36,074 nt of DNA. It comes from Rhodobiaceae bacterium. Lineage in GTDB: Bacteria > Pseudomonadota > Alphaproteobacteria > Rhizobiales > JANQQB01. Every line of letters starts with the position of its first letter. Position 1 is the first letter of the stretch. The notes under the pieces were generated by a model. That model was not told the DNA's origin. It saw only the letters and a list, made by a program, of their open reading frames with translations, and did no database searches. The position numbers were made by a program, and so were the translations under genes. The stretch is taken from positions 1 to 36,074 of the forward strand of contig JANQQB010000021.1 in NCBI GenBank assembly GCA_028285165.1, given 5' to 3'. Below are positions 3,012 to 21,134 of this stretch, piece by piece.

Positions 3012-5939
3012 ATGACTTTCAGGCAGGACGACGCCATGAGCGTAGGCAATTCTTCTTCGACCAAGGCGATTTCTATCCGGGGCGCCCGCGAGCACAACCT
3101 CAAGAACATCGACGTCGATATCCCCCGCGACAGCCTCGTAGTGATGACCGGCCTGTCCGGATCCGGAAAGTCGTCGTTGGCGTTCGACACGATCTATGCC
3201 GAAGGCCAGCGCCGGTATGTGGAATCGCTGTCGGCCTACGCCCGCCAATTTCTTGAAATGATGCAAAAGCCGGACGTCGACCAGATCGACGGCCTGTCGC
3301 CCGCCATTTCCATCGAACAAAAGACGACGTCCCGCAATCCGCGCTCAACCGTGGGAACGGTCACTGAGATCTACGATTACATGCGGCTTCTGTTCGCGCG
3401 GGTCGGCATACCTTATTCACCGGCGACGGGCCTTCCGATCGAAAGCCAGACCGTCAGCCAGATGGTCGACCGCGTTCTCGACCTGCCGGAAGGCACACGG
3501 CTCTACCTGCTTGCGCCCATCGTGCGCGGCCGCAAGGGCGAATACCGCAAGGAACTCGCCGAACTGATGAAGAAGGGCTTCCTCAGGGTCAAGATCGACG
3601 GCGCCTTCCACGAGATTGCGGACGCCCCGGCCCTCGACAAGAAGTTCAAGCATGACATTGACGTGGTGGTCGATCGGCTTGTGGTGCGTGCCGATATCGG
3701 CACACGACTGGCGGATTCCCTTGAAACGGCGCTCGGCCTGGCAGAGGGGCTGGCAATCGCCGAATTTGCCGACACTGCCGAAGGCGAGGACGAACCGCGC
3801 CGGATCATCTTTTCGGAGAAATTCGCCTGCCCGGTCTCGGGCTTCACGATCGCCGAAATCGAACCGCGCCTGTTTTCCTTCAACAATCCCTTCGGCGCCT
3901 GTCCGACCTGCGACGGATTGGGCACGACATTGCACTTCGAGGCCGATCTCGTCGTCCCGGATCCGGGCCTGACCTTGCGCAACGGCGCGATCGCACCGTG
4001 GGCAAAGACCGGCAACACGTCGCCCTATTACGCCCAGACCCTTGAAGCGCTCTGCCGGCATTTCAAGGCCTCGATGAACACGCCCTGGTCCGACCTGCCC
4101 AAGAAGGTGCGGGACGCGATCCTGTACGGCACGGGAGATAAAGCGGTCACCTTCGTCTACGACGACGGATTGCGGCGCTACCAGACCAAGAAGTCCTTCG
4201 AGGGCGTGATCACGAACATCGAGCGGCGCTGGCGCGAAACCGATTCAAGCTGGGTTCGCGAGGAACTGGAACGCTTCCAGTCGGACCATCCGTGCGAAAC
4301 GTGTTCCGGCTATCGGCTGAAGCCGGAAGCGCTCGCGGTAAAGATCGCCGGTCTGCATATCGGCGAGGTCGCCTTCATGTCGATCCGCGAGGCAGACACC
4401 TGGTTTACCGACCTTCCCGACCGGCTGACCGACAAACAGAACGAGATCGCCGGACGCATCCTGAAGGAAATCCGCGACCGCCTCCGCTTTTTGAACGATG
4501 TCGGCCTGGAATATCTGACCCTGTCGCGGGCATCGGGCACCCTGTCCGGCGGCGAAAGCCAGCGCATCCGCCTGGCCTCGCAGATCGGGTCCGGACTGAC
4601 GGGCGTGCTCTACGTGCTCGACGAGCCGTCCATCGGCCTGCACCAGCGCGACAATGATCGCTTGCTCGGCACGCTGCGTCACCTCCGGGATCTTGGCAAT
4701 ACCGTCATCGTCGTGGAACACGACGAGGACGCCATCCTGGCAGCCGATCACGTCATCGATGTGGGTCCGCATGCCGGGATCCATGGCGGCGAAATCATCG
4801 CGCAAGGGTCGCCGGACGACATCCTGCGCCATCCCGCCTCCCTGACCGGCAAATACCTGTCAGGCGCCCTCTCCGTCCGGATTCCCGAAGAACGCCGAAC
4901 GCCGCAGAAGAACCGTTGGCTGAAAATCGTCGGCGCGAGCGGCCACAACCTGAAAAACATCGACGCCAAAATCCCGCTGGGAACGTTTACGGCCGTGACG
5001 GGCGTGTCCGGTGGCGGCAAGTCAACATTGTTGATCGACACGTTGTACAAGGCAACCGCCCGCCGGCTGAACGGCTCGCGCGAACAGCCGGCACCGCATG
5101 ATCGCATCGAGGGCCTGGAAGCTCTCGACAAGGTGATTGACACCGACCAGTCGCCGATCGGCCGCACACCGCGCTCCAATCCGGCAACCTATACCGGCGC
5201 TTTCACACCGATCCGCGAGTGGTTCGCCGGTCTGCCGGAATCCAAGGCCCGCGGCTACCAGCCCGGACGCTTCTCGTTCAACGTCAAGGGCGGTCGCTGC
5301 GAAGCCTGCCAGGGCGACGGCGTGATCAAGATCGAGATGCACTTCCTACCGGATGTCTACGTAACCTGCGACGTCTGCAAGGGCGCCCGGTACAATCGGG
5401 AAACGCTGGAGGTCACCTTCAAGGAAAAGTCGATCTCCGACGTGCTCGACATGACCGTCGACGAGGGCGTTGAATTCTTTTCGGCCGTCCCGTCCGTCCG
5501 CGACAAGCTCCTGACGCTGCAGCGGGTCGGTCTCGGCTATATCAAGGTCGGCCAGCAGGCCACGACCCTGTCGGGTGGCGAAGCCCAGCGCGTCAAGCTC
5601 GCCAAGGAATTGTCGAAGCGCGCGACCGGCCGCACGCTCTACATTCTGGACGAACCGACGACAGGTCTGCATTTCCATGATGTCGCCAAGCTGCTCGACG
5701 TGCTGCATGAACTCGTCGATCAGGGCAACACGGTCATAGTCATCGAGCATAATCTGGAAGTCATCAAGACGGCGGATTGGATTATCGACCTCGGTCCGGA
5801 GGGTGGCGACGGCGGCGGAGAAATTGTTGCAAGCGGCCCGCCCGAAGTAATCGTCGGGGAGAAAAGATCTTATACTGGACGATTTCTTGATGAACTCTTG
5901 CGGCGCCGGCCTCAACACCGGATGAATGCCGCCGAATAG
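3012..5939 (+). CDS. uvrA: excinuclease ABC subunit A
   Basis: [62 protein letters not shown], zinc-finger CxxC motifs, two ABC signatures. ORF 2991..5939; ATG at 3012 or 3036 more likely than the upstream non-ATG start. Confidence 0.98.
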
Positions 5940-6713: not shown

Positions 6714-8141
6714 ATGGATCCTGTACATGTCATTGGTGCCGGCCTCGCCGGCTCTGAAGCCGCCTGGCAACTGGCCCGGCGCGGCATTCCTGTCATCCTG
6801 CATGAGATGCGCCCCGTGCGCATGACAGATGCACACCACACCGACAAGTGCGCGGAACTGGTATGCTCCAATTCCTTTCGGTCCGACGACGCGACAAGCA
6901 ATGCGGTCGGCTTGCTGCATGAAGAAATGCGACGCGCCGGATCCCTGATCCTTTCAGAAGGCGACCGCACCAAACTGCCGGCCGGCGGCGCGCTCGCCGT
7001 CGACCGGGATGCGTTTGCCGACGGTGTGACAAAACACCTGACCGAACACGATCTGATCACGCTGGTCTCAGAAGATGTCGATGGACTGCCGGACCCTGAA
7101 TGGTCGTCGGTGATCGTCGCCACCGGCCCGCTCACCTCGCCGGGTCTGTCCCGCGCCATTGCGGACCTGACCGATGCCGATTCCCTGGCCTTTTTCGATG
7201 CCATCGCCCCGATCGTGCATTTCGACACGGTCGATCTGGACGTCGCCTGGTTCCAGTCACGCTATGACAAGGCAGGCCCCGGCGGCAGTGGCGCGGACTA
7301 TGTCAATTGCCCGCTCGACAAGGACGGCTACGAGGCCTTTATCGATGCGCTGCTGGCAGCGGAGACCGCGGAATTCCGCGAATGGGAAAAGTCGACGCCC
7401 TATTTCGACGGCTGCCTGCCGATCGAAGTGATGGCCGCACGCGGCCGCGAAACGCTGCGCCACGGACCGATGAAGCCGGTCGGCCTGACCAATCGGCACA
7501 AACCAGACGAGAAACCCTATGCAGTCGTGCAATTGCGCCAGGACAACGCGCTCGGCACGCTCTACAACCTCGTCGGTTTTCAAACCAAGATGAAGTACGG
7601 CGACCAGGTTCGGGTGCTGCGCATGATACCCGGCCTGGAACAGGCTGAATTCGCCCGGCTTGGCGGCATTCACCGCAACACCTACCTCGATTCACCGCGC
7701 CTGCTGGATGCCACGTTGCGGTTAAAGGCCGAACCGCGCCTGCGCTTTGCCGGACAGATCACCGGATGCGAGGGCTATGTGGAATCCGCCGCGATCGGCC
7801 TTCTCGCGGCCCGGTTCGCGGCCGCCGAACGGCTTGGCGAGGAGATCGACCTGCCTCCCGAAACGACCGCCTTCGGAGCCCTTCTACGCCATATTACGGG
7901 AGGCCATATCGGCCAGACCGAGGTCGGCAAACCCCGCTCCTACCAGCCGATGAACATCAATTTCGGCCTGTTTCCGCCTGTCGAATTCCCGAAAAAGTCG
8001 GAGGACGGTCGGCGGCTGCGGGGATCGGAAAAAACCCTTGCCAAGAAACGGGCCATGACAAGCCGCGCCCTTCGCGATCTGGACACTTGGCTGCAGTCCG
8101 GTTTGCTCGACCGGCAGCGCAAAACCGCGCTTCCCGCATGA
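6714..8141 (+). CDS. trmFO: methylenetetrahydrofolate--tRNA-(uracil-5-)-methyltransferase
   Basis: [57 protein letters not shown]-terminal INFGLFPP motif. Confidence 0.96.
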
Positions 8142-8210
8142 AGCCGAAGAGCGATCAGCGAAAAGGTCGTTTCACCGTGAATCGCTCAAGGGCTACGACC
8201 GTCGGTTGGA

Positions 8211-9875
8211 TTAAGCGATTTCGTTCAAGCTCCGGCCATCGAACTCCAGGAGGCGCGTCGCGCCCGCCAGTTCGCGACGCGACTGGCTGACGACGATCCG
8301 GGTCATGTCGAGCCCGGCCAGCATCTCCCCGATCCGCTCTGTCATCGTCCGATCGAGCGCGGACGTGGCTTCATCGAGGAACAAAATCACCGGTGAACCC
8401 ACAACCGCCCGGGCCAGGCCCAGGCGTTGCTTTTGGCCGCCCGACAACGTGTCGACATCGCTGCCAACGGGTGTTGCAAGCCCCATAGGCAGCGCACGGA
8501 TCTCTTCGCCGAGTTCCACCCGGTCCAATGCGTGCCAAACCTCAGGTTCCGTATAAAGGCCATTGTGGGACACCGCTTCTGCAATCGTGCTTGGAAAAAA
8601 CGCCTCTCCCTGTAAGACGACCCCGAACTGACGATTTGCGTTACCCTTTCGCAGGTCCGCCAGGGAGTGACCGTCAATTCGGACCGCTCCGCTGTCCGGT
8701 TGTTCCAGGCCAAGCATGAGTCGCAGGATCGTGGATTTGCCGACATCCGAGGGCCCGACGATGCCGACAAACTCTCCCGGTTCAACTCGCAGAGAAAGAT
8801 TTTCGAAAACAGGTTCCCCCGTATCGGGATAGGCAAAGCCGACACGGTCGAACTGGATAGTACCGCTTAGCCCATTCGCCGGCTGGGGAGGAGCCAACTC
8901 AATTGTCAAAAGCGGCGCAATCCGATTGAGCGCGGGAATGAGGCTTAGACTGGCGTAACAGGCTGAGGTTACGCCGGAAATCGTCGCAAAAAGCAAAGTG
9001 ACCGTATAGGTGAACGACGCAAAGTCACCGACGGAAATCGAATTGGGGATCGAGAGTGCGAGCATGGCCGCGCACAGCACCGCAAAACCGGGAAAAACCG
9101 TAAGCGCCACGGTGCTTGTGTTCTCGAAACGGTAGAGGTCCCGGTAGGCACACAGTTGTTCGCCCAATCGGTCGAGCCAGAGCCCCGCCACCAACGAAGT
9201 TTTAGCCGCGACCCGCAGGAACGCGACCGAGTTCAACGACCCAAGGCCGAATGCACTGACCGAAGCTTCATGCTCCAGCATCTCAGTGGTCCGAGCCAGA
9301 TAGGCACGTCGGATCAGGCTCACAAAAACAAGAGGTGCAAGAGCCAGAGCCAGGCTGATCCAGGCCAGCACTGGTGACAATGTCGCAATAGTCAGCGTCA
9401 GCGGAATCGCGGTCAGGAGGCCGAAGCCAATCCCGGAACCCAGACCGATCAGGGAGGCACGAACCTGCTCGGCGCCTAGCATACGAACATGGACGTCTCC
9501 GCTGGCGCTGTTGCGGCCGAAAGCATCCGGAGCGGCCAATTGGCGTTGCCAGAGCGCGGGCATCAATCGCAGATCGACAGACCGTTCCACATGGCTCAAC
9601 GCCACATCGCGGACGATCCGGATGACGGCAAGGCCCAGCACCGCTGCAGCCATGATCGCCGCTGGAAGAAGCAGGTCGCCATCACCGCCTTGGCCTTGGA
9701 TGACGGCGGCGTCGACCAATTGTTTGAGAAACAGTGGCACAAGAGCAGCAAAGCCACCGGCAACGAGTGCGGCAATGCCTATGCCCAGATAGGCCTTGAG
9801 GCTTCCGGCAAAGCCGATTTGCAGAATGATCTGTAAGCTCTGCAAGGGCGACAACAAGGGCGGTCGATCTGTCAC
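8211..9875 (-). CDS. ABC transporter permease/ATPase of a peptide exporter (second half of a two-gene NHLP-like pair)
   Basis: TM region plus NBD: Walker A GPSDVGKST, signature LSGGQKQR, Walker B VILFLDEATSALD. GTG at 9875 lies 1 nt after the upstream gene's TGA, so this start is preferred over 9944 (translational coupling). Confidence 0.85.
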   Translation of the reverse strand: MTDRPPLLSPLQSLQIILQIGFAGSLKAYLGIGIAALVAGGFAALVPLFLKQLVDAAVIQGQGGDGDLLLPAAIMAAAVLGLAVIRIVRDVALSHVERSVDLRLMPALWQRQLAAPDAFGRNSASGDVHVRMLGAEQVRASLIGLGSGIGFGLLTAIPLTLTIATLSPVLAWISLALALAPLVFVSLIRRAYLARTTEMLEHEASVSAFGLGSLNSVAFLRVAAKTSLVAGLWLDRLGEQLCAYRDLYRFENTSTVALTVFPGFAVLCAAMLALSIPNSISVGDFASFTYTVTLLFATISGVTSACYASLSLIPALNRIAPLLTIELAPPQPANGLSGTIQFDRVGFAYPDTGEPVFENLSLRVEPGEFVGIVGPSDVGKSTILRLMLGLEQPDSGAVRIDGHSLADLRKGNANRQFGVVLQGEAFFPSTIAEAVSHNGLYTEPEVWHALDRVELGEEIRALPMGLATPVGSDVDTLSGGQKQRLGLARAVVGSPVILFLDEATSALDRTMTERIGEMLAGLDMTRIVVSQSRRELAGATRLLEFDGRSLNEIA

Positions 9876-9876
9876 C

Positions 9877-12000
9877 TCACGCCCTTTCCTCAGGCTCTGA
9901 CGCCGGCACCCAAAGGCGCGGACCGAGCCGAACCACCTTGTCACAGTGGCCGATTAACCGATCCCGATGGGTGATGAGCACCACACTGGCCCCGGTGGCC
10001 TTGATGGCAGCCAAAATCGCAGCTTCGCGATCCACGTCGAGCGCACTCGTCGCCTCGTCCATGATCAGCAATCGTGGATGCGCACAAAGGGCGCGTGCGA
10101 TTTGTATCCTCTGGCGCTCACCCCCACTGAAATTCCTGCCGTTTTCGGCAACGGCACAGTCCAATTCCAACGGACGGCGTCGCACCGCATCCGCGAGGCA
10201 AACATCCTCCAATACGGCCCACATCTTTTGGTCATCAGATGTCGGGGTCCACAGACTGAGATTGTCCCGCAAGGTTCCCGCGAACAGATGCGTCTCCTGG
10301 TCCAGCCAGTGCAGACCCCTCGCAAGGTGGCTCCTGTCAAGGATCTCAATGGGTAAACCGTCGATGAGGATCTGACCGTCGACGTCGGGTAACAACCCCG
10401 CGCACGCTTTGCCGACCGTCGATTTCCCGGCTCCGCTCGGTCCGACAAGCGCCACCCATTCACCCGGATCGAGACGTAGCGAGAGATCCTGGACCACCGG
10501 CGGCGCTATCGGAGCGTACCGGATCGTTACGGCCTTGAGCTCGAGCCGGCCTTCCGGCACATGATGCACGTTTCGAAGCGGCGTGACGGTCTCGGCCGGC
10601 GTATCGAGCGCATCGTCCAGACGATCAAGGTGTCCCTGGATTGGCTGCAGCTGTGCGATCGTTCGCATCAACCTGTTCGTCGGGGCGTAGATCGAAAGGA
10701 TCAATGCCTGGATGGCAATCAGCGTACCTGATGACTGGGTGCCGGCGGCAACCTGCTGGGCGCCCAGCGCGAGAACGACGACGATGGCAAGCCCGAGGAT
10801 CGTATCCGGCACCACCGCCAGGCACCGGGTCGCAACCGACAATCGAAAGGTTGTCCGGGCGACGGACCGGTTGATCGCTGTCCAGCGGTCAAGGAAGGCC
10901 TTCTCGAGACCGCCGGCGCGAATCGAATCAAGGGCGCGCAACCCTCCCAGCGACATTGCGGTCCTCTGTCCCCGCTCATGAGCTAACAGCCGGACGGCTT
11001 CCAGCCTTTGAGCGGCGAGCAGCTGATAGGCCATGCCGATTAGTGCAGAAAACGTGAACACAACCGCCGTCAGAACGGTCGAATAAACGAGCATGCAAAT
11101 GGTGATCCCCACAATGGCGACGCCGTCCTGAAGAGCCTGGGTGAGCTGGATGCTGGTGTAATTCGAGATCCGTAGGGTCGTCTTTACGCGCGCATTGACC
11201 TCCCCGCCGTAGCGATGGGCGAAAAACCGCAAGGGCAAGGCAACCAGATGGTCGATAAACCGGCGCGCCAGACGGTCACTTTGGGTGACTTCAAGATCCG
11301 CCACACGGGACAGCCTGGTTGCGGTCAGCCACAGATGGATGAGGACAGTGATTGCAAACGCAACGGCAAGCAGGGTGCCGGCGCCGGCATCATGGCCGAT
11401 GAGAACCTGATCGACAAATCGCCGCGACAGATCGGCCAGAGCGAGTGGCGGAACAAGCAGAACAGAACTGACGACCGAGACGATAATCGCCTCTCTACGC
11501 TGTCCCTGAAGGTGTCCGAGTAAAGCACCAAGCGTTGATTTGCGCGTGTCGGAGGGTTCGAAATCCTCTCCTGGCTCAGCTTCAACAATGACGTTCGAAA
11601 AGTTCCGTTGCCAATCCGGGAGCGGAATGGTCCGGCGACCGCGGGCCGGATCGTTGACTTCGACGGCTCCGTTGCGGATGCCCTCAACGACGAGAAAGTG
11701 ATGCGATCGCCAAAGCGCGATGCAGGGATAGGTCACATCGGCGTCGGTCAGGCTCACAACACGATAGCCGCGCATGGAAAGACCGCGTTCGCGCCCTGCC
11801 GTTATGATATCGGAAGCCCGCGCTCCGTCACGCGACACGCCGCAGGCGAAGCGAAGGTCTGCCAGGCTGTCAAACCGCCCGTAATACCGCAACAGGATTG
11901 CCAACGCCGCGGCACCGCATTCCGCCGTCTCCATCTGAAGGACGATCGGCGTGCGTCGCGGGCGCCGGACCAGTCTTGCAAACGGGAACCTCATCCCCAA
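9877..12000 (-). CDS. C39 peptidase/permease/ATPase, bacteriocin-type ABC exporter (NHLP-like)
   Basis: N-terminal C39 domain with all catalytic elements (TPIVLQMETAECGAAALAILLRYYG; SHHFLVVEG; NDPARG), TM domain, NBD with GPSGAGKST, FSGGERQR, LLIMDEATSALD. Confidence 0.92.
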   Translation of the reverse strand: MGMRFPFARLVRRPRRTPIVLQMETAECGAAALAILLRYYGRFDSLADLRFACGVSRDGARASDIITAGRERGLSMRGYRVVSLTDADVTYPCIALWRSHHFLVVEGIRNGAVEVNDPARGRRTIPLPDWQRNFSNVIVEAEPGEDFEPSDTRKSTLGALLGHLQGQRREAIIVSVVSSVLLVPPLALADLSRRFVDQVLIGHDAGAGTLLAVAFAITVLIHLWLTATRLSRVADLEVTQSDRLARRFIDHLVALPLRFFAHRYGGEVNARVKTTLRISNYTSIQLTQALQDGVAIVGITICMLVYSTVLTAVVFTFSALIGMAYQLLAAQRLEAVRLLAHERGQRTAMSLGGLRALDSIRAGGLEKAFLDRWTAINRSVARTTFRLSVATRCLAVVPDTILGLAIVVVLALGAQQVAAGTQSSGTLIAIQALILSIYAPTNRLMRTIAQLQPIQGHLDRLDDALDTPAETVTPLRNVHHVPEGRLELKAVTIRYAPIAPPVVQDLSLRLDPGEWVALVGPSGAGKSTVGKACAGLLPDVDGQILIDGLPIEILDRSHLARGLHWLDQETHLFAGTLRDNLSLWTPTSDDQKMWAVLEDVCLADAVRRRPLELDCAVAENGRNFSGGERQRIQIARALCAHPRLLIMDEATSALDVDREAAILAAIKATGASVVLITHRDRLIGHCDKVVRLGPRLWVPASEPEERA

Positions 12001-12011
12001 TCCACGCGCCT

Positions 12012-12929
12012 TCAGCCCTTGGAAAGCCGCTTTTCCGACCGCATGTTGATTACGGATGATTCGACAAGTGACTGCAAACGACCCGTAATGAGGTTTGTCG
12101 CTGACTCATTCTCCCTGAAAAAGAAGAAGACGCCTTTTCGATGGTGAAGAGCCTTGATTGAAACATGCCGTTCGATGGCCCCTCTTACGAGCGCGAGCGC
12201 GGCCGCGCTGCCCCGTTCGGCAGGTGACACAAACAGGCGGGCATAGTTCACGTGCCCTGCCCCGTCGTCGGTGCATAACAACAGGCCGGAAATCAAACCG
12301 GACCGCACAAGCGCCACGCTGACATCTTCGATCAGAATGTCGGCGTACCGGTGGTAATCCCGCCATGTCAGCGGTGCCAGATCCTCAAGCGCTTCAAGAG
12401 ACGCCTTCTCTCCTGACGAAAGGTCGGCCCAAGATTTGATCTCAGTGCCCTCTGGCGGGTCAGCGCTTTCCCACCAGTCAAGCGCATTAGTGCGACCGAG
12501 GTCGAGCGCCAGGATTGCACGTTCCGAATGTTCCCGAAAGTCCGACCATCCCCGGGATTGGAGCAGATGCGCGATTGTCGGAAGCGTATCGGTCTTGCGC
12601 ACCTCGCAATATATCTCGTCAAGTCGCTTTGTGGCGGCCCAGCGTTCAACCGTCCCCAAAACCTCCGAACCATGGCCTTGTCGCCGCGCCGCGCCGTCCG
12701 TATGTATCCATTCCAGCCGGCCGCGATTGGTTTTGTTGAAAACCTGAACAACAGCGATCGCGCATGCTTGATCATCTGTACAGGCGACAAAACAGACTAT
12801 TTCTTTGTTTTGTCCGCGACTGAGAAGTGTTGGGGGTAGCCATTTCGCCACCCCTAGTGAAAGTGACTCATCAAGGCTAACACGCCGAACCGTCAGAGCA
12901 GTCAAACCCGTTGCATCCGACTTTCTCAC
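12012..12929 (-). CDS. tandem GNAT-fold acyltransferase, candidate polyketide-peptide condensing enzyme
   Basis: 305 aa. First GNAT domain has motif A LEWIHTDGAARRQGHGSEVLGTVERWA. Second, more degenerate half has HVNYARLFVSPAERGSAAALALVRGAIE. Start appears to be GTG. Confidence 0.8.
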   Translation of the reverse strand: MRKSDATGLTALTVRRVSLDESLSLGVAKWLPPTLLSRGQNKEIVCFVACTDDQACAIAVVQVFNKTNRGRLEWIHTDGAARRQGHGSEVLGTVERWAATKRLDEIYCEVRKTDTLPTIAHLLQSRGWSDFREHSERAILALDLGRTNALDWWESADPPEGTEIKSWADLSSGEKASLEALEDLAPLTWRDYHRYADILIEDVSVALVRSGLISGLLLCTDDGAGHVNYARLFVSPAERGSAAALALVRGAIERHVSIKALHHRKGVFFFFRENESATNLITGRLQSLVESSVINMRSEKRLSKG

Positions 12930-12998
12930 CCCCCAACAAATCAGCCGATCTACTTGACCACAGACCGGCCTTCCTTACTTACGAAGATTTAGCGGCAC

Positions 12999-13139
12999 TC
13001 ACTTACCGTCATCTGCGTCATCGCCTTCGTAATAAACGAAGGGTCCGACCGAAATGAGATCAAGCTCTTGCTGACTCAGTTCTGACTTGATCTCTTCAAC
13101 TTTCTTTTCGTTTTTCTGGGCTTTCGTTTCGTGGTTCAT
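12999..13139 (-). CDS. 46-aa RiPP/bacteriocin-like precursor peptide
   Basis: Reverse-strand translation from ATG 13139 to TGA 12999: MNHETKAQKNEKKVEEIKSELSQQELDLISVGPFVYYEGDDADDGK. Leader LSQQELDLISVG aligns with the double-Gly leader consensus (L-12, S-11, E-8, L-7, I-4, G-1). First gene upstream of GNAT and C39 exporter on the same strand. GGAAAG ends 8 nt before ATG. Below the ORF-track length cutoff. Confidence 0.82.
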   Translation of the reverse strand: MNHETKAQKNEKKVEEIKSELSQQELDLISVGPFVYYEGDDADDGK

Positions 13140-13178
13140 TTTTCTAACTTTCCAGTTTTTATCGTTTGTTTCCACGGG

Positions 13179-13206
13179 TTTATCTGTTGTGGCCCGATAG
13201 CGTCAA
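13179..13206 (-). promoter_or_regulatory. predicted sigma70-type promoter for the peptide-GNAT-exporter operon
   Basis: Reverse strand TTGACG-N16-GATAAA, -10 element ~40 nt upstream of ATG 13139. Confidence 0.5.
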
Positions 13207-13781
13207 GATAATGACGGCCTCCCTCAGTTCAACCCGTAAAAGCAGGATACCCTCAAAAATGTTTCTCAATGGTTATTAATTGGACTGATTTGACCGACAA
13301 ATATGGACAAGTATCTCTTTTAAGTTGTGTTATGAAAACTAGATTAACGTTCGCACAGCGGTTCCGATCGTCGCGTTGCTCTTTCTGCGAAGGATAATCG
13401 AACCGCAGGGTACCGGGGCGATTTTTGGAAAATCCTAACTCCAAGCCAATGACAAGGCGATCCGGAGCTGTTGGATAGTAGACTCAATCTAAGATGTGAA
13501 TCTGAAACCTGAATGCAATGGTGCCCTGCGAGCACAAACAGGCCGTGGAGGGCAGTCCGAGGATCTTCAGGACATGTCACCGGCAGACTGACGACTGAGA
13601 TCGTGACGGTCGGTATGCTCATGACAGGGCTTCACAGCAGCCTGGCATGGCGTTACCCGAACTTCGCCGGCGATGCATTTCCCTGCATCTTTGACTTTCG
13701 CAAGAGTTAAAAAGATTCTTTTTTGATGAGATAAATATCCACAATCCGGACAAAAAAATCCTAGATTCAATTTTTTTAGCA

Positions 13782-13810
13782 TTGAGCACATTCGCATATT
13801 TACCGATAAA
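13782..13810 (+). promoter_or_regulatory. predicted sigma70-type promoter for the PKS gene
   Basis: TTGAGC-N17-GATAAA, about 85 nt upstream of ATG 13896. Same -10 hexamer as the divergent operon. Confidence 0.45.
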
Positions 13811-13895
13811 GGCGTCGGCTTCGACGCTGGCATTCTAACACCCTCCCCGATCTGGCGTCCCACGGCTATGAAATCCTTTGGATACAGTTTGAGTC

Positions 13896-16800
13896 ATGAA
13901 CAACGAAGCCAGTCGTACTGGACCTCATAGTCTAGCGCCGTTCCCGGCGGATGCTGTCGCGATCGTCGGTATGGGCTGTCGTCTGCCCGGCGGAGTCCAT
14001 GGACCGACAGCGTTGTGGGAAAACCTCCTGCATCGTTTCGACGGGGTCTCCAGTGTTCCAGCGGACCGCTGGAAACACGAAATGCTGTATTCGAAAACAA
14101 AGGGAAAACCCGGGAAATACAGCGTCACGCGGGCCGCCTTCCTTACCGATTGGGACCACAAGACGTTTGACCGCGAGTTTTTCGGTATCAACCCGAGGGA
14201 AGCCGAGCAGATGGACCCGCAGCAGCGGCTGGTGCTCGAAACGGCCGTGGAAGCCTTGAATGACGCCGGCATCGGAGTTGAGCGCGCGGCCGCCGGTTCA
14301 ACAGGCGTGTTTGTCGGTGCCTTTATGATGGACCAGTTCGTCACAGCCAACGAAACGCTGGCCCGTTCCAGGATTACCGCCCAGACCACCATTGCGGGCA
14401 ACGCAACAATGATTGCGGCTCGGATTTCCCACGCGCTCAATCTGACCGGTCCAAGCCTGGCGATCGATACGGCCTGTTCCTCCTCCCTTGTTGCGTTTCA
14501 TGTTGCAGTCCAGTCAATCCGCACCGGAGAATCGGATCTTGCGCTAACCGGTGGCGTCAACTTCATGCTGCGGCCCGAAACCTTCATAACGCTGTCGGCA
14601 GGAGGTTTCCTGGCCGCAGACGGCCGATCAAAGTGCTTCGACGTTGGCGCCGATGGATACGGGCGCGGCGAAGGCTGCGGTATCGTGGTGCTCAAGCGTC
14701 TGGAAGACGCGCTTGGCGATAACGACCGGATCTATGCTGTTGTCCGCGGAACCGGAGTCAACCAGGATGGCCATACTTCGGCGATCGCCGTGCCCAGCGC
14801 CGCCGCACAGCAGGCGCTCATGGAACGCGTGCTTGCGACATCCGAAATCGACCCGCGATGGATCGACTATGTCGAAGCGCATGGAACGGGCACGCCGATC
14901 GGCGACCCAGCCGAATGCAGTTCGATCGCAACGGCCTACGCGCGATTTCGGCCCGAAACCGCCCCCTGTTATGTTGGGTCGATAAAGTCCAGCACTGGCC
15001 ATCTGGAGGCCGGCGCGGGCATTGCCGGTATTCTGAAAGCCGCTCTTGTCGCACGTCACCGAAAGGTGCCGCCACAAGGGTGGATTGAGACACTGAACCC
15101 CAATATCGATTTTGAAAAACTCAATCTCCGTGTACCGGTAGAAACGACCGAGATTGGCCGACCCGAACGCGGGACGTTCGTCGCTGTCAACTCGTTCGGT
15201 TATGGCGGCACGAACGCCCATGTCATCTTGCAATCGCCACCTGCATCCCCTGGGGCATCCCCTGGGGAACGAAGGGCCAATGCCGGTCGCTTTCGCGTAG
15301 CGGGCAAGGATTTTTTTGCCTTGACGCTCTCTGCGCAGAGCGAGGCAGGGTTGACCGCTGTCGCCCGGCAATGGCTGGAAAAAGTCGAGCACTGCGATGC
15401 AGGGGCTCTGGGAGATCTATGCTGGTCGACGGCAACGCGTCGCAGCCACTGGAGCCGGCGCGCCATGGTCTTGGGGACGAGCCTGGAAGACATCGAAACG
15501 GCCCTGGACGACCTGGCGGAAGCCCATCCGAACGACGCCCTGGTAACGGCAAAGTCGACGAATGTCTCAAGCCGCGCGACGACCGGGCCGGCCTTTGTGT
15601 TCTCGGGTATGGGACCGCAATGGTGGGGAATGGCGCGTCAACTGTTGCTGGCCGACAGCCGGTTCCGCGCGGTGGCCGACGCCTGCGACGCGGCCTTCGG
15701 TGACGTTGCAGGGTGGAGTATCCTGCAGGAAATGCTGAAGGACGAAGCGGACTCACAGATCGCCGACACGCGTGTCGCGCAACCCGCCAACGCGGTTGTC
15801 CAGATTGGGCTCACCGAACTGTTCAAAACCTGGGGCATCGTTCCACAAGCCGTCATCGGTCACAGTACAGGTGAGATTGCCGCGGCCTATGCGGCCGGCA
15901 TCTACGACATTCCGCAGGCGATGACGGTTGCATTCCATCGCAGCCAGGCCCAGGGTCGGCTTTCCGGCAAGGGCGCGATGTTAGCCGCCGGATTGTCCGA
16001 AAACGAAGCCGGCACCTGGGTGGGGCCGGACGCGCAGAACATCGCGATCGCCGCGATAAATGGGCCGAATTCCGTCACCTTTTCAGGTCGGCCTGCGACG
16101 CTGAGATACATCCAGACTTCCCTGGAAGCCGTGGGCAGATTTGTCCGCATGCTGGACGTCGACATCGCCTATCACAGCCCTCAAATGGCTGAGATACGCG
16201 AAGAATTAACGGCCAATCTCAGTGCCGTGGAACCCGGCATTCCGTCTCGACCGATCTATTCAACGGTCACCGGAAAGCCGGTGCGGGACGAGCGTTTCGA
16301 TGCCGCATACTGGTACCGTAACGTTCGGGATCCGGTCCGGTTTCGGGCGGCCATTGAAGCCATGATCGAAGATGGCTGGACGGATTTTGTCGAAGTTGGT
16401 CCTCATCCGGTTCTGAGCCACTCCATTCAACAGATCGGCATAGCCGGCTCCACGGCGATAACGGTGGCCAATACGTTGTCCAGAAGACGATCCGACGACG
16501 ACTCCATCGCCCGCGCCCTTGGCCAGATCTACGTCAATGGAGGGACGCTCGACTGGTCGTTGATCCTGGGCCGGGGGTGCCGCGTCGACCTGCCGGGTTA
16601 TCCGTGGCAGCGCGAGCTGTTGTGGTATGATCGGCCGGAAACCGAAGCCTATCTGGGGCTCGACGATCTGCCGGACTTACTTGGCCGCCGGGATGAGGTC
16701 CGGCAAGCTTGGTATTGTGAACTGCACCTGGACCGGTTCCCGTGGCTGCGTGACCATGTGGTCGATGGCGAAATGGTGTTTCCCGGTGCCGGGTACATTG

Positions 16801-19800
16801 AAGCCGCCGCCCTGATTCAAACACGGATAATGGGCCGCGACCGGTTTGCGCTCTACGACATCGATTTCAGCCGAGGATTGATCCTGCAGGAAGAGACTGC
16901 CCGAGAGCTCCGCCTGGAGCTTGGTAACAACGATCGGGACCTGATCGTCCGCTCTCGAGCACCGGGTTCCGCGTCAGTTACGAACCACGCCCGCATAGGG
17001 TTGTCATCGATGTCGGTGACGCCGCCGGATCCGATCAATCCGAAAGAGATGGCAAAAGCCTTCGGCGAATCGCTTTGTTTGGACGAAGTCTATGACGGCC
17101 TTCATATGCGCGGTCTTGACTATGGCGATGCCTTCCGCACGGTTCTGTCGGAGGTAAAAATTGAGGCGGGCCAGGTTCTCGCATTGTTTGATGTTCCCGA
17201 TGACATGCGCAGTTCCGCCCACGCAATCCATCCGGTCATCCTCGACAGCTGCTTTCATGCTTTGATGGCCGATCTCAGGGGACGGACGGATCCGCACCAG
17301 CTTTACGTGCCAAGACGGATACGCGCTTTGCATTTCTTCAGGCCCTTGCAAAGCAAGCTTGTGCTCTACTGCACGGGTCTCGTCGAGTCAGCAGACGGCT
17401 TCACCGTCGACTTCTCCGTTTATGACGCTGCTGGAGATGCGGTCTTTTTGGTTCTTGGCCTCGACATACGGCCGATCCCGCGCAGTTCCGGTAACGAGAT
17501 TGACAACAATGCTCGGTATCACTTCGACCTGACCTGGCTTTCTCCGGCGAACGCGGTGGATTCGAAAAGTGATGCTTCCACTGTCATTGCCCTACTCGAC
17601 CGCAACGAAAAGGGCCGTGCGGTCGCAGAGGCGGCCAGCAAGGGCCGTCACCTGACAATTCTGAGACCGGATGAACGCGATCGGCTGGCCGGTCTCGTCG
17701 AAGCCGCGCCCGGCGCTGTTGTACTCGATTTCTGCGCGCTCGACGCCGCGCCTGAGGACGGCGGCTGCGATGCCCTGTGCCTTGGCTTGTCGACGCTACA
17801 GACCCTCTCGGCGTCTCGATTCGGCCGATGCATTCTTGTTACCGAACGCGCGCAACCTGCAGCCGGTGCGCACAGCCAGCTAAATCCCGAACAGGCGTCG
17901 CTGATCGGCGCAATCCGTGTCGCTGACAATGAGCTCAACAATCATCGTTTTGGTGCTGTGGACTTCGGAGACTTAAAGAGCGCGCAGGAACTGGCACAAA
18001 CGGCACAGGCGATAGCGCTCAGCGCGAGAGACCTGGAAGTCACGATCCGCGGCGACAGGCTGACGACGCCGAGAATAGTGCCCGTAGATCCGACAGCATC
18101 GCCGAAGAAAACCGAACGCCGGTTCGGCGATGCGGCAACCCGCTTGGCGCTGCTGTCAGATGGCGACGCCTTGGCGTGGCACTGGCGGGATGACGAACCG
18201 CAGCCTCCGCAACCCGGCGAAGTTGCCCTTGCCATTGATGCGCTCGTGCTTCCCCCCGCCCGATCCGCCCAAGCACGACAGAACAAGGCGGACGCCGCCG
18301 GCGGACAAGTGGTAGCCGGCCGGATTGTGGCGACAGGCACTGAGACCGACACCAGTTTCAACCTGGGCGACCGACTCGTCGGGATAGTGCCAGATGGGCT
18401 TGCCTCCGATCTGGTTTTGCCCGCCACCCAAATCGAACGGTCAATGGTCCGGCTACCGGCGCACGTTTCGACCGAATATGCCGTCGCAGCAGTACTGCCC
18501 TTTACGGCTGCGCTTTACGCACTGGAAACCGTTGCGCGCCCTGAGCCCGATGAAACGGTTCTTATTGCCGGACTTGACGCCGATAACGATCTGGCTGCTG
18601 TGCAAATCGCGCGGGCGTCCGGTGCCAGGGTGTTTGCGCTCCACGCGTCGGTCGACGGCCGCGCACGCCTTCGCCTGGCAGGTTGCGACGGCGTCTTTGA
18701 CAGCGCCACGTCCGATTTTCGCGAAAGCCTTCTTGCAGAGACTGATGGCCGCGGTGTCGATATCGTGCTCAGCAACGGAAAGGGCGAGCTTGCCGAGTTA
18801 TGCGCCGGTCTCCTCGCACCCTTGGGCCGGCTGGTCCAATTTGGCGGGTTGGCGATATCGGTGTTTGGTGCATCTCCGACACGCGAGCATGCCGGCTCTC
18901 TTTCGGTCACAACCTTCAATCCGCGCACGCTATGGCAGGAACGGCCAACGCTCTTCAAAAGGCTTTTGAAGGACGTTCTGAACCGCCTGGAAGACGCACA
19001 GATCAAGCCGATCAAGCCGATCACCCTTCAGGCCGACACCCTTGAAACAGAGCAGCCGGATCATGACCCGGAGCGCAACCGACTTGTGCTGACACTCGAC
19101 CCCGACGCGACCATCGAGGCAATCGCGAAGCCCAAAAGTACGACGTCGGATTTCGGCGGCGATGGCGCCTGTTTAATCACCGGCGGCCTGACGGGCTTGG
19201 GGCTGGCAACCGCACGATGGCTTGCCCGCAACGGTGTGCGATCGCTCGTCCTCGTCAGCCGTCGTGGCCCTGACGCGCCGGGCACTGCCGAGATTAAAGT
19301 CGAGTTGGAACAGATCGGCGTTCAAGTACACGTGTTTGCCTGCGATGTCGGGAAACGGGACCAGGTCGAAGCGTTGTTCTCGCGCCTTGATGCACAGTCG
19401 ATCTCGTTGTCGGGCGTGTTCCACGCCGCCGGCGTCCTGGAGGACGCGATCATCGAGAACCAGACACCGGATATGCTGCGCCGTGTCTTCGGCGCCAAAT
19501 CCATTGCCGCGTGGAACCTTCACCGGGCAACGCAGGATCACCCGGTGAAATGGTTCGTGCTCTATTCGTCGATTTCGTCCTTCATCGGCACGCCAGGACA
19601 ACTTGGTTATGTCGGGGCAAACGCCGTCATGGATAGCCTTGCCCACTACCGACGCAACCTTGGTTTGCCGGCACTCAGCGTCAACTGGGGTGTCATCGGC
19701 GATGTCGGGATGGCGGCCAATACGGGCGATTCCCTGCAATGGGTCGAACAGGCTATTTTTACGCCGCTATCGCCCGACATCGCCCTTGATTCGCTTCACG

Positions 19801-20228
19801 TAGCCTTTGCGCTCGACAAGGTTCAGATGTCGGTCGCCGACGCCAATTGGGGCCTTTGGGCGAACGCCTCATCCCGGACCGCGTCATCGCGCAAGTTCGA
19901 GACCTTCGAGGCAGAACCGATGGAAACCGAAAAAGCCGCGCAAGCCATGCTTGCAGGGCTGCCGGCTGCAGAACGGTTCGACTGTTTGCAAAGGCTTTTG
20001 ATAGAGGCGCTGTCGCACGTTCTTTCCCTGTCACCCGAAAAAATCTCGCCGCAAAGGCCAATGAACGAGTTTGGCCTCGATTCTCTCATGGTGACGGAAT
20101 TGCAGATTGAATTCAGCAAATTGGGTATTCAACTCTCGCTCATGGAGTTGATGCAGAGCGAGAACATGCGGCAGCTGACCCACACCGCACTCAATGTCAT
20201 GAAGTTCGACCACGCCAGCGCGGCGTAA
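13896..20228 (+). CDS. type I polyketide synthase, single reducing module KS-AT-DH-ER(degenerate)-KR-ACP, no thioesterase
   Basis: KS: DTACSSS, EAHGTGTPIGD, GHLEAGAG. AT: FVFSGMGPQWWGM, GHSTGE, YHSPQM. DH: HVVDGEMVFPGAGY and HPVILDSCFHAL. KR: LITGGLTGLGLATARWLA, YSS, GYVGANA. ACP: NEFGLDSLMV (Ser codon 20082-20084). Protein ends ~50 aa after the ACP Ser. Confidence 0.95.
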   Translation: MNNEASRTGPHSLAPFPADAVAIVGMGCRLPGGVHGPTALWENLLHRFDGVSSVPADRWKHEMLYSKTKGKPGKYSVTRAAFLTDWDHKTFDREFFGINPREAEQMDPQQRLVLETAVEALNDAGIGVERAAAGSTGVFVGAFMMDQFVTANETLARSRITAQTTIAGNATMIAARISHALNLTGPSLAIDTACSSSLVAFHVAVQSIRTGESDLALTGGVNFMLRPETFITLSAGGFLAADGRSKCFDVGADGYGRGEGCGIVVLKRLEDALGDNDRIYAVVRGTGVNQDGHTSAIAVPSAAAQQALMERVLATSEIDPRWIDYVEAHGTGTPIGDPAECSSIATAYARFRPETAPCYVGSIKSSTGHLEAGAGIAGILKAALVARHRKVPPQGWIETLNPNIDFEKLNLRVPVETTEIGRPERGTFVAVNSFGYGGTNAHVILQSPPASPGASPGERRANAGRFRVAGKDFFALTLSAQSEAGLTAVARQWLEKVEHCDAGALGDLCWSTATRRSHWSRRAMVLGTSLEDIETALDDLAEAHPNDALVTAKSTNVSSRATTGPAFVFSGMGPQWWGMARQLLLADSRFRAVADACDAAFGDVAGWSILQEMLKDEADSQIADTRVAQPANAVVQIGLTELFKTWGIVPQAVIGHSTGEIAAAYAAGIYDIPQAMTVAFHRSQAQGRLSGKGAMLAAGLSENEAGTWVGPDAQNIAIAAINGPNSVTFSGRPATLRYIQTSLEAVGRFVRMLDVDIAYHSPQMAEIREELTANLSAVEPGIPSRPIYSTVTGKPVRDERFDAAYWYRNVRDPVRFRAAIEAMIEDGWTDFVEVGPHPVLSHSIQQIGIAGSTAITVANTLSRRRSDDDSIARALGQIYVNGGTLDWSLILGRGCRVDLPGYPWQRELLWYDRPETEAYLGLDDLPDLLGRRDEVRQAWYCELHLDRFPWLRDHVVDGEMVFPGAGYIEAAALIQTRIMGRDRFALYDIDFSRGLILQEETARELRLELGNNDRDLIVRSRAPGSASVTNHARIGLSSMSVTPPDPINPKEMAKAFGESLCLDEVYDGLHMRGLDYGDAFRTVLSEVKIEAGQVLALFDVPDDMRSSAHAIHPVILDSCFHALMADLRGRTDPHQLYVPRRIRALHFFRPLQSKLVLYCTGLVESADGFTVDFSVYDAAGDAVFLVLGLDIRPIPRSSGNEIDNNARYHFDLTWLSPANAVDSKSDASTVIALLDRNEKGRAVAEAASKGRHLTILRPDERDRLAGLVEAAPGAVVLDFCALDAAPEDGGCDALCLGLSTLQTLSASRFGRCILVTERAQPAAGAHSQLNPEQASLIGAIRVADNELNNHRFGAVDFGDLKSAQELAQTAQAIALSARDLEVTIRGDRLTTPRIVPVDPTASPKKTERRFGDAATRLALLSDGDALAWHWRDDEPQPPQPGEVALAIDALVLPPARSAQARQNKADAAGGQVVAGRIVATGTETDTSFNLGDRLVGIVPDGLASDLVLPATQIERSMVRLPAHVSTEYAVAAVLPFTAALYALETVARPEPDETVLIAGLDADNDLAAVQIARASGARVFALHASVDGRARLRLAGCDGVFDSATSDFRESLLAETDGRGVDIVLSNGKGELAELCAGLLAPLGRLVQFGGLAISVFGASPTREHAGSLSVTTFNPRTLWQERPTLFKRLLKDVLNRLEDAQIKPIKPITLQADTLETEQPDHDPERNRLVLTLDPDATIEAIAKPKSTTSDFGGDGACLITGGLTGLGLATARWLARNGVRSLVLVSRRGPDAPGTAEIKVELEQIGVQVHVFACDVGKRDQVEALFSRLDAQSISLSGVFHAAGVLEDAIIENQTPDMLRRVFGAKSIAAWNLHRATQDHPVKWFVLYSSISSFIGTPGQLGYVGANAVMDSLAHYRRNLGLPALSVNWGVIGDVGMAANTGDSLQWVEQAIFTPLSPDIALDSLHVAFALDKVQMSVADANWGLWANASSRTASSRKFETFEAEPMETEKAAQAMLAGLPAAERFDCLQRLLIEALSHVLSLSPEKISPQRPMNEFGLDSLMVTELQIEFSKLGIQLSLMELMQSENMRQLTHTALNVMKFDHASAA

Positions 20229-20273
20229 TCGCTCACGCCTGTCTTGGCATGTACCTGCAAACCACACAATGCT

Positions 20274-21134
20274 CTAGGGGTTGAGCGACGCCAGACGCCT
20301 GGCAGTCCGCCACAGCGTCCATTGCCGACGCCATTGCGGGATCTCGACCAGGTCCTTGCGCGGATCCTTGCGGCCGCATTCGAATACCTTGAGATAGGCC
20401 GGTGCTATACCGGTCTGGAGATAGGCGGCCGCCAGTCCCTGACACCCGGCGGCGACAAAGGCCTGTTCGAACCGGTCGAGGTGATGGCGCGCATGGGCGC
20501 ACATTTCCTGAACGACCGCGTGCAACCGGCTGCTGCAGATCGGCTCAAGCACTTCTTCCGATGACATGCCGTGCCGCCCCAGCACATCGGCGGGCAGGAA
20601 CACCTGCCGCTTCGCTGTATGCCAGGGGATCCGGCGCAGCATATCGACAATGCCGAGCGCCGCGCCGGCATGGCCCGACACATCCGCCGTGCCGGGATCG
20701 CGGCCTCCGGCCAGAATGATCGCCGCCAATTGCATGACCGCCGACACGGTCTCGCCGGCATAACCCTCAAGGTCGGTCAGCATCGGCATCGGATCGTTGT
20801 AGAGATCGAACGTGTGCGCTTCGATCAGATCGAGCAGCGGCGTTGTCGGCAGCCGGTAGGTCTCGATCACCTGCACCAGCGATGCCGCGACCGGGTTGGC
20901 TTCGACGGATCCGTGCGCGATGTTCTGCAGCGCGTCCGACCACCATTGCAGCCGGATCTCTCCCGGCATCGGATCGCTGACGATATCCGGGATGCGGTTG
21001 ATCTCCACATCGAAGGCATAGAGCGCCAGCAGGGCATCGCGGTGTTCCTCGGCGGCAAACAGGGCGCTCAGATAGCGGTCCCTGTCATGCTGTCGAACGA
21101 GGTTGCGGCAATGATCGGCGGCGGTACACTCCAT
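20274..21134 (-). CDS. squalene/phytoene synthase-like protein (possibly NDUFAF6-like)
   Basis: RYLSALFAAEEHRDALLALYAFDVEINRIPDIVSDPMPGEIRLQWWSDAL; GIVDMLRRIPWHTAKRQVFLPADVL. Fold family recognisable, but the Asp-rich motifs are not canonical. Confidence 0.8.
   Translation of the reverse strand: MECTAADHCRNLVRQHDRDRYLSALFAAEEHRDALLALYAFDVEINRIPDIVSDPMPGEIRLQWWSDALQNIAHGSVEANPVAASLVQVIETYRLPTTPLLDLIEAHTFDLYNDPMPMLTDLEGYAGETVSAVMQLAAIILAGGRDPGTADVSGHAGAALGIVDMLRRIPWHTAKRQVFLPADVLGRHGMSSEEVLEPICSSRLHAVVQEMCAHARHHLDRFEQAFVAAGCQGLAAAYLQTGIAPAYLKVFECGRKDPRKDLVEIPQWRRQWTLWRTARRLASLNP

Follow-up and report, generated by a model that had tools for sequence, protein, structure and literature searches.

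How does a single-module type I PKS that ends after its ACP release its chain, and is the GNAT encoded nearby, between a small peptide and its exporter, the enzyme that moves this chain onto the peptide? These questions are raised by a 36,074-nucleotide stretch of DNA from a Rhodobiaceae bacterium (hereafter, the window), for which a preliminary description had nominated a GNAT protein as the PKS off-loading and peptide-acylating enzyme. From our analysis, five genes of the window probably make up a single pathway in which a ribosomal peptide is acylated with a polyketide, the GNAT moving the PKS chain onto the precursor. The features concerned are the following (positions are those of the window).

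8142..20273, 12.1-kb insertion between TrmFO (6714-8141, plus strand) and an HpnD-like gene (20274-21134, minus strand)
8211..9944, minus strand, second ABC half-transporter (ABC2) of 577 aa, nearest NCBIfam model NHLM_micro_ABC2
9877..12000, minus strand, ABC exporter with N-terminal C39 peptidase (Pfam PF03412, PF00664, PF00005)
12012..12929, minus strand, tandem GNAT-fold acyltransferase of 305 aa (Pfam and family profile)
12180..12227, minus strand, degenerate P-loop position SPAERGSAAALALVRG of the C-terminal half, residues 235-250 (from the sequence)
12657..12686, minus strand, P-loop RRQGHGSEVL of the N-terminal half, residues 82-91 (from the sequence)
12999..13139, minus strand, precursor peptide of 46 aa with a leader ending in ELSQQELDLISVG and the predicted core PFVYYEGDDADDGK (leader motif)
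13896..20228, plus strand, single-module type I PKS, KS-AT-DH-(degenerate ER)-KR-ACP (Pfam domains)

The insertion contains exactly the genes for the PKS, the precursor, the GNAT, the C39-ABC exporter and ABC2. The last four form a minus-strand operon in the order precursor (13139-12999), GNAT (12929-12012), C39-ABC (12000-9877) and ABC half (9944-8211), which places the GNAT between precursor and exporter as previously described, and this operon and the PKS are divergently transcribed. In relatives of the order, UvrA, TrmFO, the HpnD-like gene, SecF and SecD stay together; TrmFO and the HpnD-like gene are neighbours, face to face, in 10 of 12 of their regions, and are 49-187 bp apart in six. 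As exactly five genes lie between these two in the window, the PKS and peptide genes seem to have arrived, or to be kept, as one unit; of the new evidence, we regard this as the most telling for a pathway common to PKS and peptide. The ends of the island showed no flanking repeats that would mark an insertion mechanism, and no integrase was seen. Within the 12.1 kb there is no gene for a further transferase, a thioesterase, a cyclase or a free-standing protease, nor any class III lanthionine synthetase or avionin-forming gene. A second example of the five-gene set was not found, which, like the divergent transcription, weakens the one-pathway reading.

The GNAT gene is an uninterrupted open reading frame of 305 codons, the length given before, which begins with GTG at 12929 and runs to 12012 on the minus strand, a strand that the preliminary description had not stated. 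It is present as a single copy in its own genome (5.9-Mb assembly, 508 contigs). The N-terminal half matches Acetyltransf_1 (PF00583) with 43.7 bits, against a cut-off of 20.7, over residues 42-115, and its RRQGHGSEVL fits the GNAT P-loop pattern [Q/R]xxGx[G/A] (R82-R-Q-G85-H-G87), with R82 and G85 invariant in a six-sequence alignment; score and P-loop together assign the protein to the GNAT superfamily. In the C-terminal half, SPAERGSAAALALVRG lacks the Q/R of the P-loop and aligns with equally degenerate C-half positions of RiPP-linked relatives. The earlier reading of a retained first and a degenerate second motif is thus correct. The C-half alone gave zero Pfam matches, even at E=10; against known resistance or RimI families (NCBIfam) the protein scored far under every cut-off, and a sequence search of the PDB returned nothing meaningful. 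Structure prediction yielded poor single-sequence AlphaFold models of the whole protein and the C-half (pLDDT 42 and 44), and a Foldseek search with the poor model, which produced no match at E 0.001, was set aside.

That the protein comprises two GNAT-like halves, as first suggested, is upheld by homology, with structure giving no proof. Single-sequence searches found no close homologue in the order (298 genomes, E 1e-8), the phylum (399 genomes, E 1e-5) or plasmids; a pattern scan of genome contigs likewise found none, and viral contigs held no relatives. A class-wide search gave two weak matches of ~300 aa, aligned across the junction and the second half of the window GNAT, and in the reverse search from one of them the window GNAT was the sole match in its genome (E 1.9e-5). 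A first family profile, built from six aligned relatives and searched through 279 genomes of the class, placed the window GNAT first among all proteins of its genome (E 3.8e-9, over positions 34-253 of the model), and the remaining matches, except the known member G837, were confined to the generic first half. Alignment of the window protein to the family profile with hhalign gave a probability of 97% over 203 columns. With a second profile of eleven members, from which the window protein was left out, it scored 58 bits, aligned to positions 36-264 of the 305 in the model, where 2000 shuffles reached at most 12.4; its C-half by itself scored 35.7 bits, where 5000 shuffles did not exceed 6.5. 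Single-domain GNATs match the profile through the N-half only and the window GNAT through both halves; among solved structures, too, the profile matched single GNATs, by the N-half only. When the two halves of the family were aligned with each other, the P-loop regions fell in register, weakly so (hhalign probability 35%, E 4e-4; 25% with the window protein included).

That the window protein is a very divergent tandem GNAT, homologous over both halves, is therefore well supported by profile comparison. Its two profile scores, together with the adjoining GG-leader precursor (12999-13139) and RiPP exporter (C39-ABC, 9877-12000), place it in the RiPP-linked tandem GNAT family assembled here. It is 16-21% identical to the family members, keeps 14 of 28 near-conserved columns and forms the longest branch of the tandem-GNAT tree; grouping it by this tree was dropped, as its placement on so long a branch is unsure. 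With half of the conserved columns lost and identity this low, the function of the family may not carry over to the window GNAT.

Where do the relatives lie? At least eight of them, to which the window GNAT is linked only via the weak class-wide matches and the profile, adjoin Nif11- or NHLP-type precursors and RiPP epimerases, methylases or NHLM/C39 exporters. Two alphaproteobacterial relatives adjoin a radical SAM (PoyD-type) epimerase (TIGR04517) and a RiPP C-methyltransferase (TIGR03975); one of these loci has a Nif11-leader precursor that passes its model, and the other a similar precursor or leader. In three Mesorhizobium plasmid copies the GNAT gene overlaps the epimerase gene, within clusters that have Nif11 precursors, and locus L138 of this genus also has an NHLP exporter pair. 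The GNATs beside PoyD-type epimerases, in Mesorhizobium and the two other alphaproteobacteria, are homologous to the window GNAT over both halves and lie in RiPP clusters, some with a C39 exporter; they differ in their Lys-first cores after GG, in having no PKS nearby, and in sequence, with 17-21% identity to the window GNAT. Scanned with phmmer from a single sequence, 17 NHLM loci had wrongly appeared to lack GNATs; the family profile then found five tandem GNATs, in four NHLM-exporter loci of the order to which the window belongs. Three of these four have GG precursors nearby, and the loci of this order carry short cores after ELSEKDLDLVAGG-type leader ends, or an NHLP-like leader.

Several further observations concern these clusters. 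Lys directly after GG starts the cores at L132 11997, L133 6130, L138 6934, L139 14527, L140 6963 and L142 5466, and Lys-first cores of GNAT-bearing Nif11/GG clusters include KHHSS, KGHHHH and KGGRGG. Such cores suggest that the relatives would acylate Lys1, as in nostolysamides. A core Lys as such has no discriminating value; it is present beside every tandem GNAT listed, yet also in two clusters without a tandem GNAT. On a plasmid of Microcoleus vaginatus PCC 9802 (L142 8697-9603) the tandem GNAT is broken into two frames, and this split gene adjoins a C39-ABC exporter and the KGGRGG-core precursor, whose core starts with Lys after GG. At L022 (1745, 2330) and L024 (1598, 2052, 2415) the clusters have several short GG precursors each, next to tandem GNATs and NHLM exporters, and similar cores, VITHRFNMTKVGKVLY and VIAHPYNPTKFGKVIY, occur in two genomes. 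At L030 (2110-4368), two differing tandem GNATs are adjacent and accompanied by an NHLP-like precursor (4346-4693, core SEGNPCPDPRGGQRGTIVKIRPASSN). In Nostoc sp. ATCC 53789 (L141 7729-9840), the C-terminus of a protein annotated as TIGR03032 is a whole tandem GNAT, with no RiPP gene annotated adjacent.

As to the presumed source of the acyl chain, Pfam analysis agrees with the earlier claim that the PKS has no release domain, since it ends after the ACP with neither a thioesterase nor a reductase domain. The catalytic motifs of KS, AT, DH, KR and ACP are intact, and the ER has lost its nucleotide-binding motif (LDADND versus GGVG of active relatives, 18558-18620). Because KR and DH are intact and the NADPH-binding motif of the ER is lost, the chain should keep double bonds; the PKS is probably iterative. 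The ER region of the related PKSs L107, L095 and L090 also looks degenerate. The closest solved structure is mycocerosic acid synthase (MAS), which has a single module and the same domain order, with a working ER in contrast to the degenerate one here. The finished MAS chain is transferred by a separate acyltransferase, PapA5 (PMC12370991); unlike the protein considered here, PapA5 falls outside the GNATs, and its substrate is phthiocerol. Neither a tandem GNAT nor a C39 exporter occurs at any of 80 loci with similar PKSs (31-41% identity). In the island, the GNAT is the sole encoded activity able to join PKS and peptide, and off-loading onto the precursor is on that account what we infer as the best reading. 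The two parts of the original proposal have fared differently: peptide acylation has gained from the relatives in RiPP clusters and from published like proteins that acylate Lys or ornithine (PMC13060382, PMC9505594), and off-loading, strengthened by the five-gene island, the absent release domain and the lack of tandem GNATs at the 80 PKS loci, is still a predicted step.

The published proteins also supply the alternative that survives best. NpuN is a tandem GNAT with its P-loop conserved in the N-terminal half only, which acylates Lys1 and prefers palmitoyl-CoA (PMC13060382), and PhaN, from phaeornamide biosynthesis, acylates hydroxyornithine (PMC9505594). The likeness of these selidamide GNATs (NpuN, PhaN; nostolysamides, phaeornamide, kamptornamide) to the window protein is one of described anatomy, tandem with a P-loop in the N-half only; their systems, too, encode a GG-leader precursor and a C39-type exporter alongside, and acylation is on Lys or ornithine side chains (PMC13060382, PMC9505594). 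They differ in using primary-metabolism fatty acyls, usually beside lanthionine synthetases, arginases or epimerases, whereas the window has a dedicated PKS and no other maturase, and its precursor has neither a Nif11/NHLP leader domain nor Lys1. The donors described for published RiPP-GNAT relatives are acyl-CoA or primary-metabolism acyl groups, not acyl-ACP (PMC13060382, PMC9505594). The window GNAT might accordingly place a primary-metabolism fatty acyl (acyl-CoA or FAS acyl-ACP) on Lys46, with the PKS making a separate product or being an incidental neighbour, as would be in keeping with the use of palmitoyl-CoA and related donors by published tandem RiPP GNATs (PMC13060382), with the origin of the C10 acid of phaeornamide in primary metabolism (PMC9505594) and with the absence of a PKS from the loci of GNAT relatives examined. 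We nevertheless consider this unlikely, given that one discrete insertion is common to the PKS and peptide genes with nothing else inside and that the PKS, itself devoid of a release domain, has no other enzyme in the island to release its chain. A switch to another acyl donor would also fit the window GNAT having diverged much further than its relatives.

Under the preferred reading, transfer of the PKS chain by the GNAT, the acceptor must be sought in the precursor. Apart from a Val at -2, its LSQQELDLISVG conforms to LSxxELxxIxGG, the pattern of double-glycine leaders, and its leader end resembles the ELSEKDLDLVAGG of precursors adjoining tandem GNATs. Across 4.85 million six-frame residues, small ORFs with the relaxed leader pattern were limited to the window and two apparent GG precursors near NHLM exporters. 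The precursor has no NCBIfam and no significant Pfam match, and none to leader_Nif11 or NHLP, so that its resemblance to those precursors is limited to the leader end. The core PFVYYEGDDADDGK does not begin with Lys, unlike those of the PoyD-type clusters; its sole lysine is Lys46, the final residue, and the earlier numbering of Pro33 and Lys46 is right. The adjacent C39-ABC exporter has the Q22, C28, SHHF and NDPARG motifs and is a divergent relative of NHLM_micro_ABC1 (TIGR03796), its nearest NCBIfam model, which it matches with 623 bits, below the membership cut-off of 853. The second ABC half scores 337.6 bits against NHLM_micro_ABC2, below the cut-off of 709, and at 577 aa is shorter than the usual NHLM ABC2. 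C39 exporters normally tie leader cleavage to export. The predicted cleavage site counts against the scheme, in that its Val at -2 and its Pro at +1 are each unusual where C39 domains cut.

Pro33 and Lys46 had been offered as alternative sites of acylation, and our analysis does not rank them alike. Pro33 could be acylated only if its N-terminus were free in the cytosol, and the exporter's C39 domain is the sole protease encoded; Lys46 needs no protease. Because C39 cleavage accompanies export and no cytosolic peptidase is encoded, Lys46 on the leader-attached precursor is favoured over N-terminal Pro33 as the predicted acceptor. The opposite choice, in which the GNAT would acylate the imine of N-terminal Pro33 with the PKS chain after leader removal, has precedent in goadvionins and lipolanthines, which are N-terminally acylated hybrid peptides (PMC13060382, PMC9505594), and a cut behind VG would indeed leave Pro33 as a free N-terminus. 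We rate it as improbable: cleavage by the exporter is export-tied, yet the acyl donor is cytosolic, a separate peptidase is absent from the island, and the relatives have leader-attached Lys targets (see also PMC13060382). In the actinobacterial systems, exemplified by goadvionin GdvG and the lipolanthines, an acyltransferase links a polyketide chain and a ribosomal peptide (PMC12837651, PMC9505594), and parts of all three types (PKS, ribosomal peptide, acyltransferase) are present in the window, known from their genes. Goadvionins, however, are class III lanthipeptides acylated at the N-terminus and come from actinobacteria, while the window has no lanthionine enzyme, a C39 exporter and a host of another phylum. 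Least probable of all is a plain acetyltransferase, serving for example self-protection by peptide acetylation and without a role in PKS chain release: the N-half is a generic GNAT whose P-loop is of the CoA type, and NpuN takes acetyl-CoA as well in vitro (PMC13060382), but the family that the protein matches best, through both halves, is that of the RiPP-linked tandem GNATs rather than any known resistance or RimI family, and release of the PKS chain would then be left to no enzyme of the island.

For the polyketide-acylated peptide, we infer donor, acceptor and order of steps as follows. The thioesterase-less, probably iterative PKS would build a partly unsaturated chain on its own ACP, and the 46-aa precursor would be made with its short double-glycine-type leader, the motif of which is seen. 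The P-loop of the GNAT N-half would bind the phosphopantetheine thioester arm and the degenerate C-half would probably hold the precursor, so that the GNAT could move the chain from the ACP to a peptide amine, likeliest the Lys46 side chain with the leader still attached, and thereby free the PKS product. The C39-ABC exporter, in line with its C39 domain and the leader motif, would then cut behind VG32 and export the acyl peptide. Read most specifically, the locus may represent a minimal, self-contained pathway of five genes in a proteobacterium: a tandem GNAT would accept an unsaturated polyketide directly from the ACP of a thioesterase-less PKS and attach it to the C-terminal lysine of a ribosomal peptide that is otherwise unmodified. 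Such products would form a polyketide-RiPP lipopeptide class apart from the goadvionins, which are lanthipeptides acylated at the N-terminus, and from the selidamides, which carry fatty acids; we put this forward tentatively, at slightly under an even chance.

Few ribosomal peptides joined to polyketides are known, and reviews name lipolanthines and goadvionins. If our reading is true, the window encodes a minimal bacterial lipopeptide route, one of very few such, and with five genes and one maturation enzyme it would be the simplest such system to rebuild in a laboratory host. It would test whether tandem GNATs can make direct use of type I PKS acyl-ACP, and may become a tool for attaching polyketide chains to gene-encoded peptides. 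For the family, the analysis brings out GNATs whose C-half is hidden from Pfam and which can be found by profile beside RiPP exporters.
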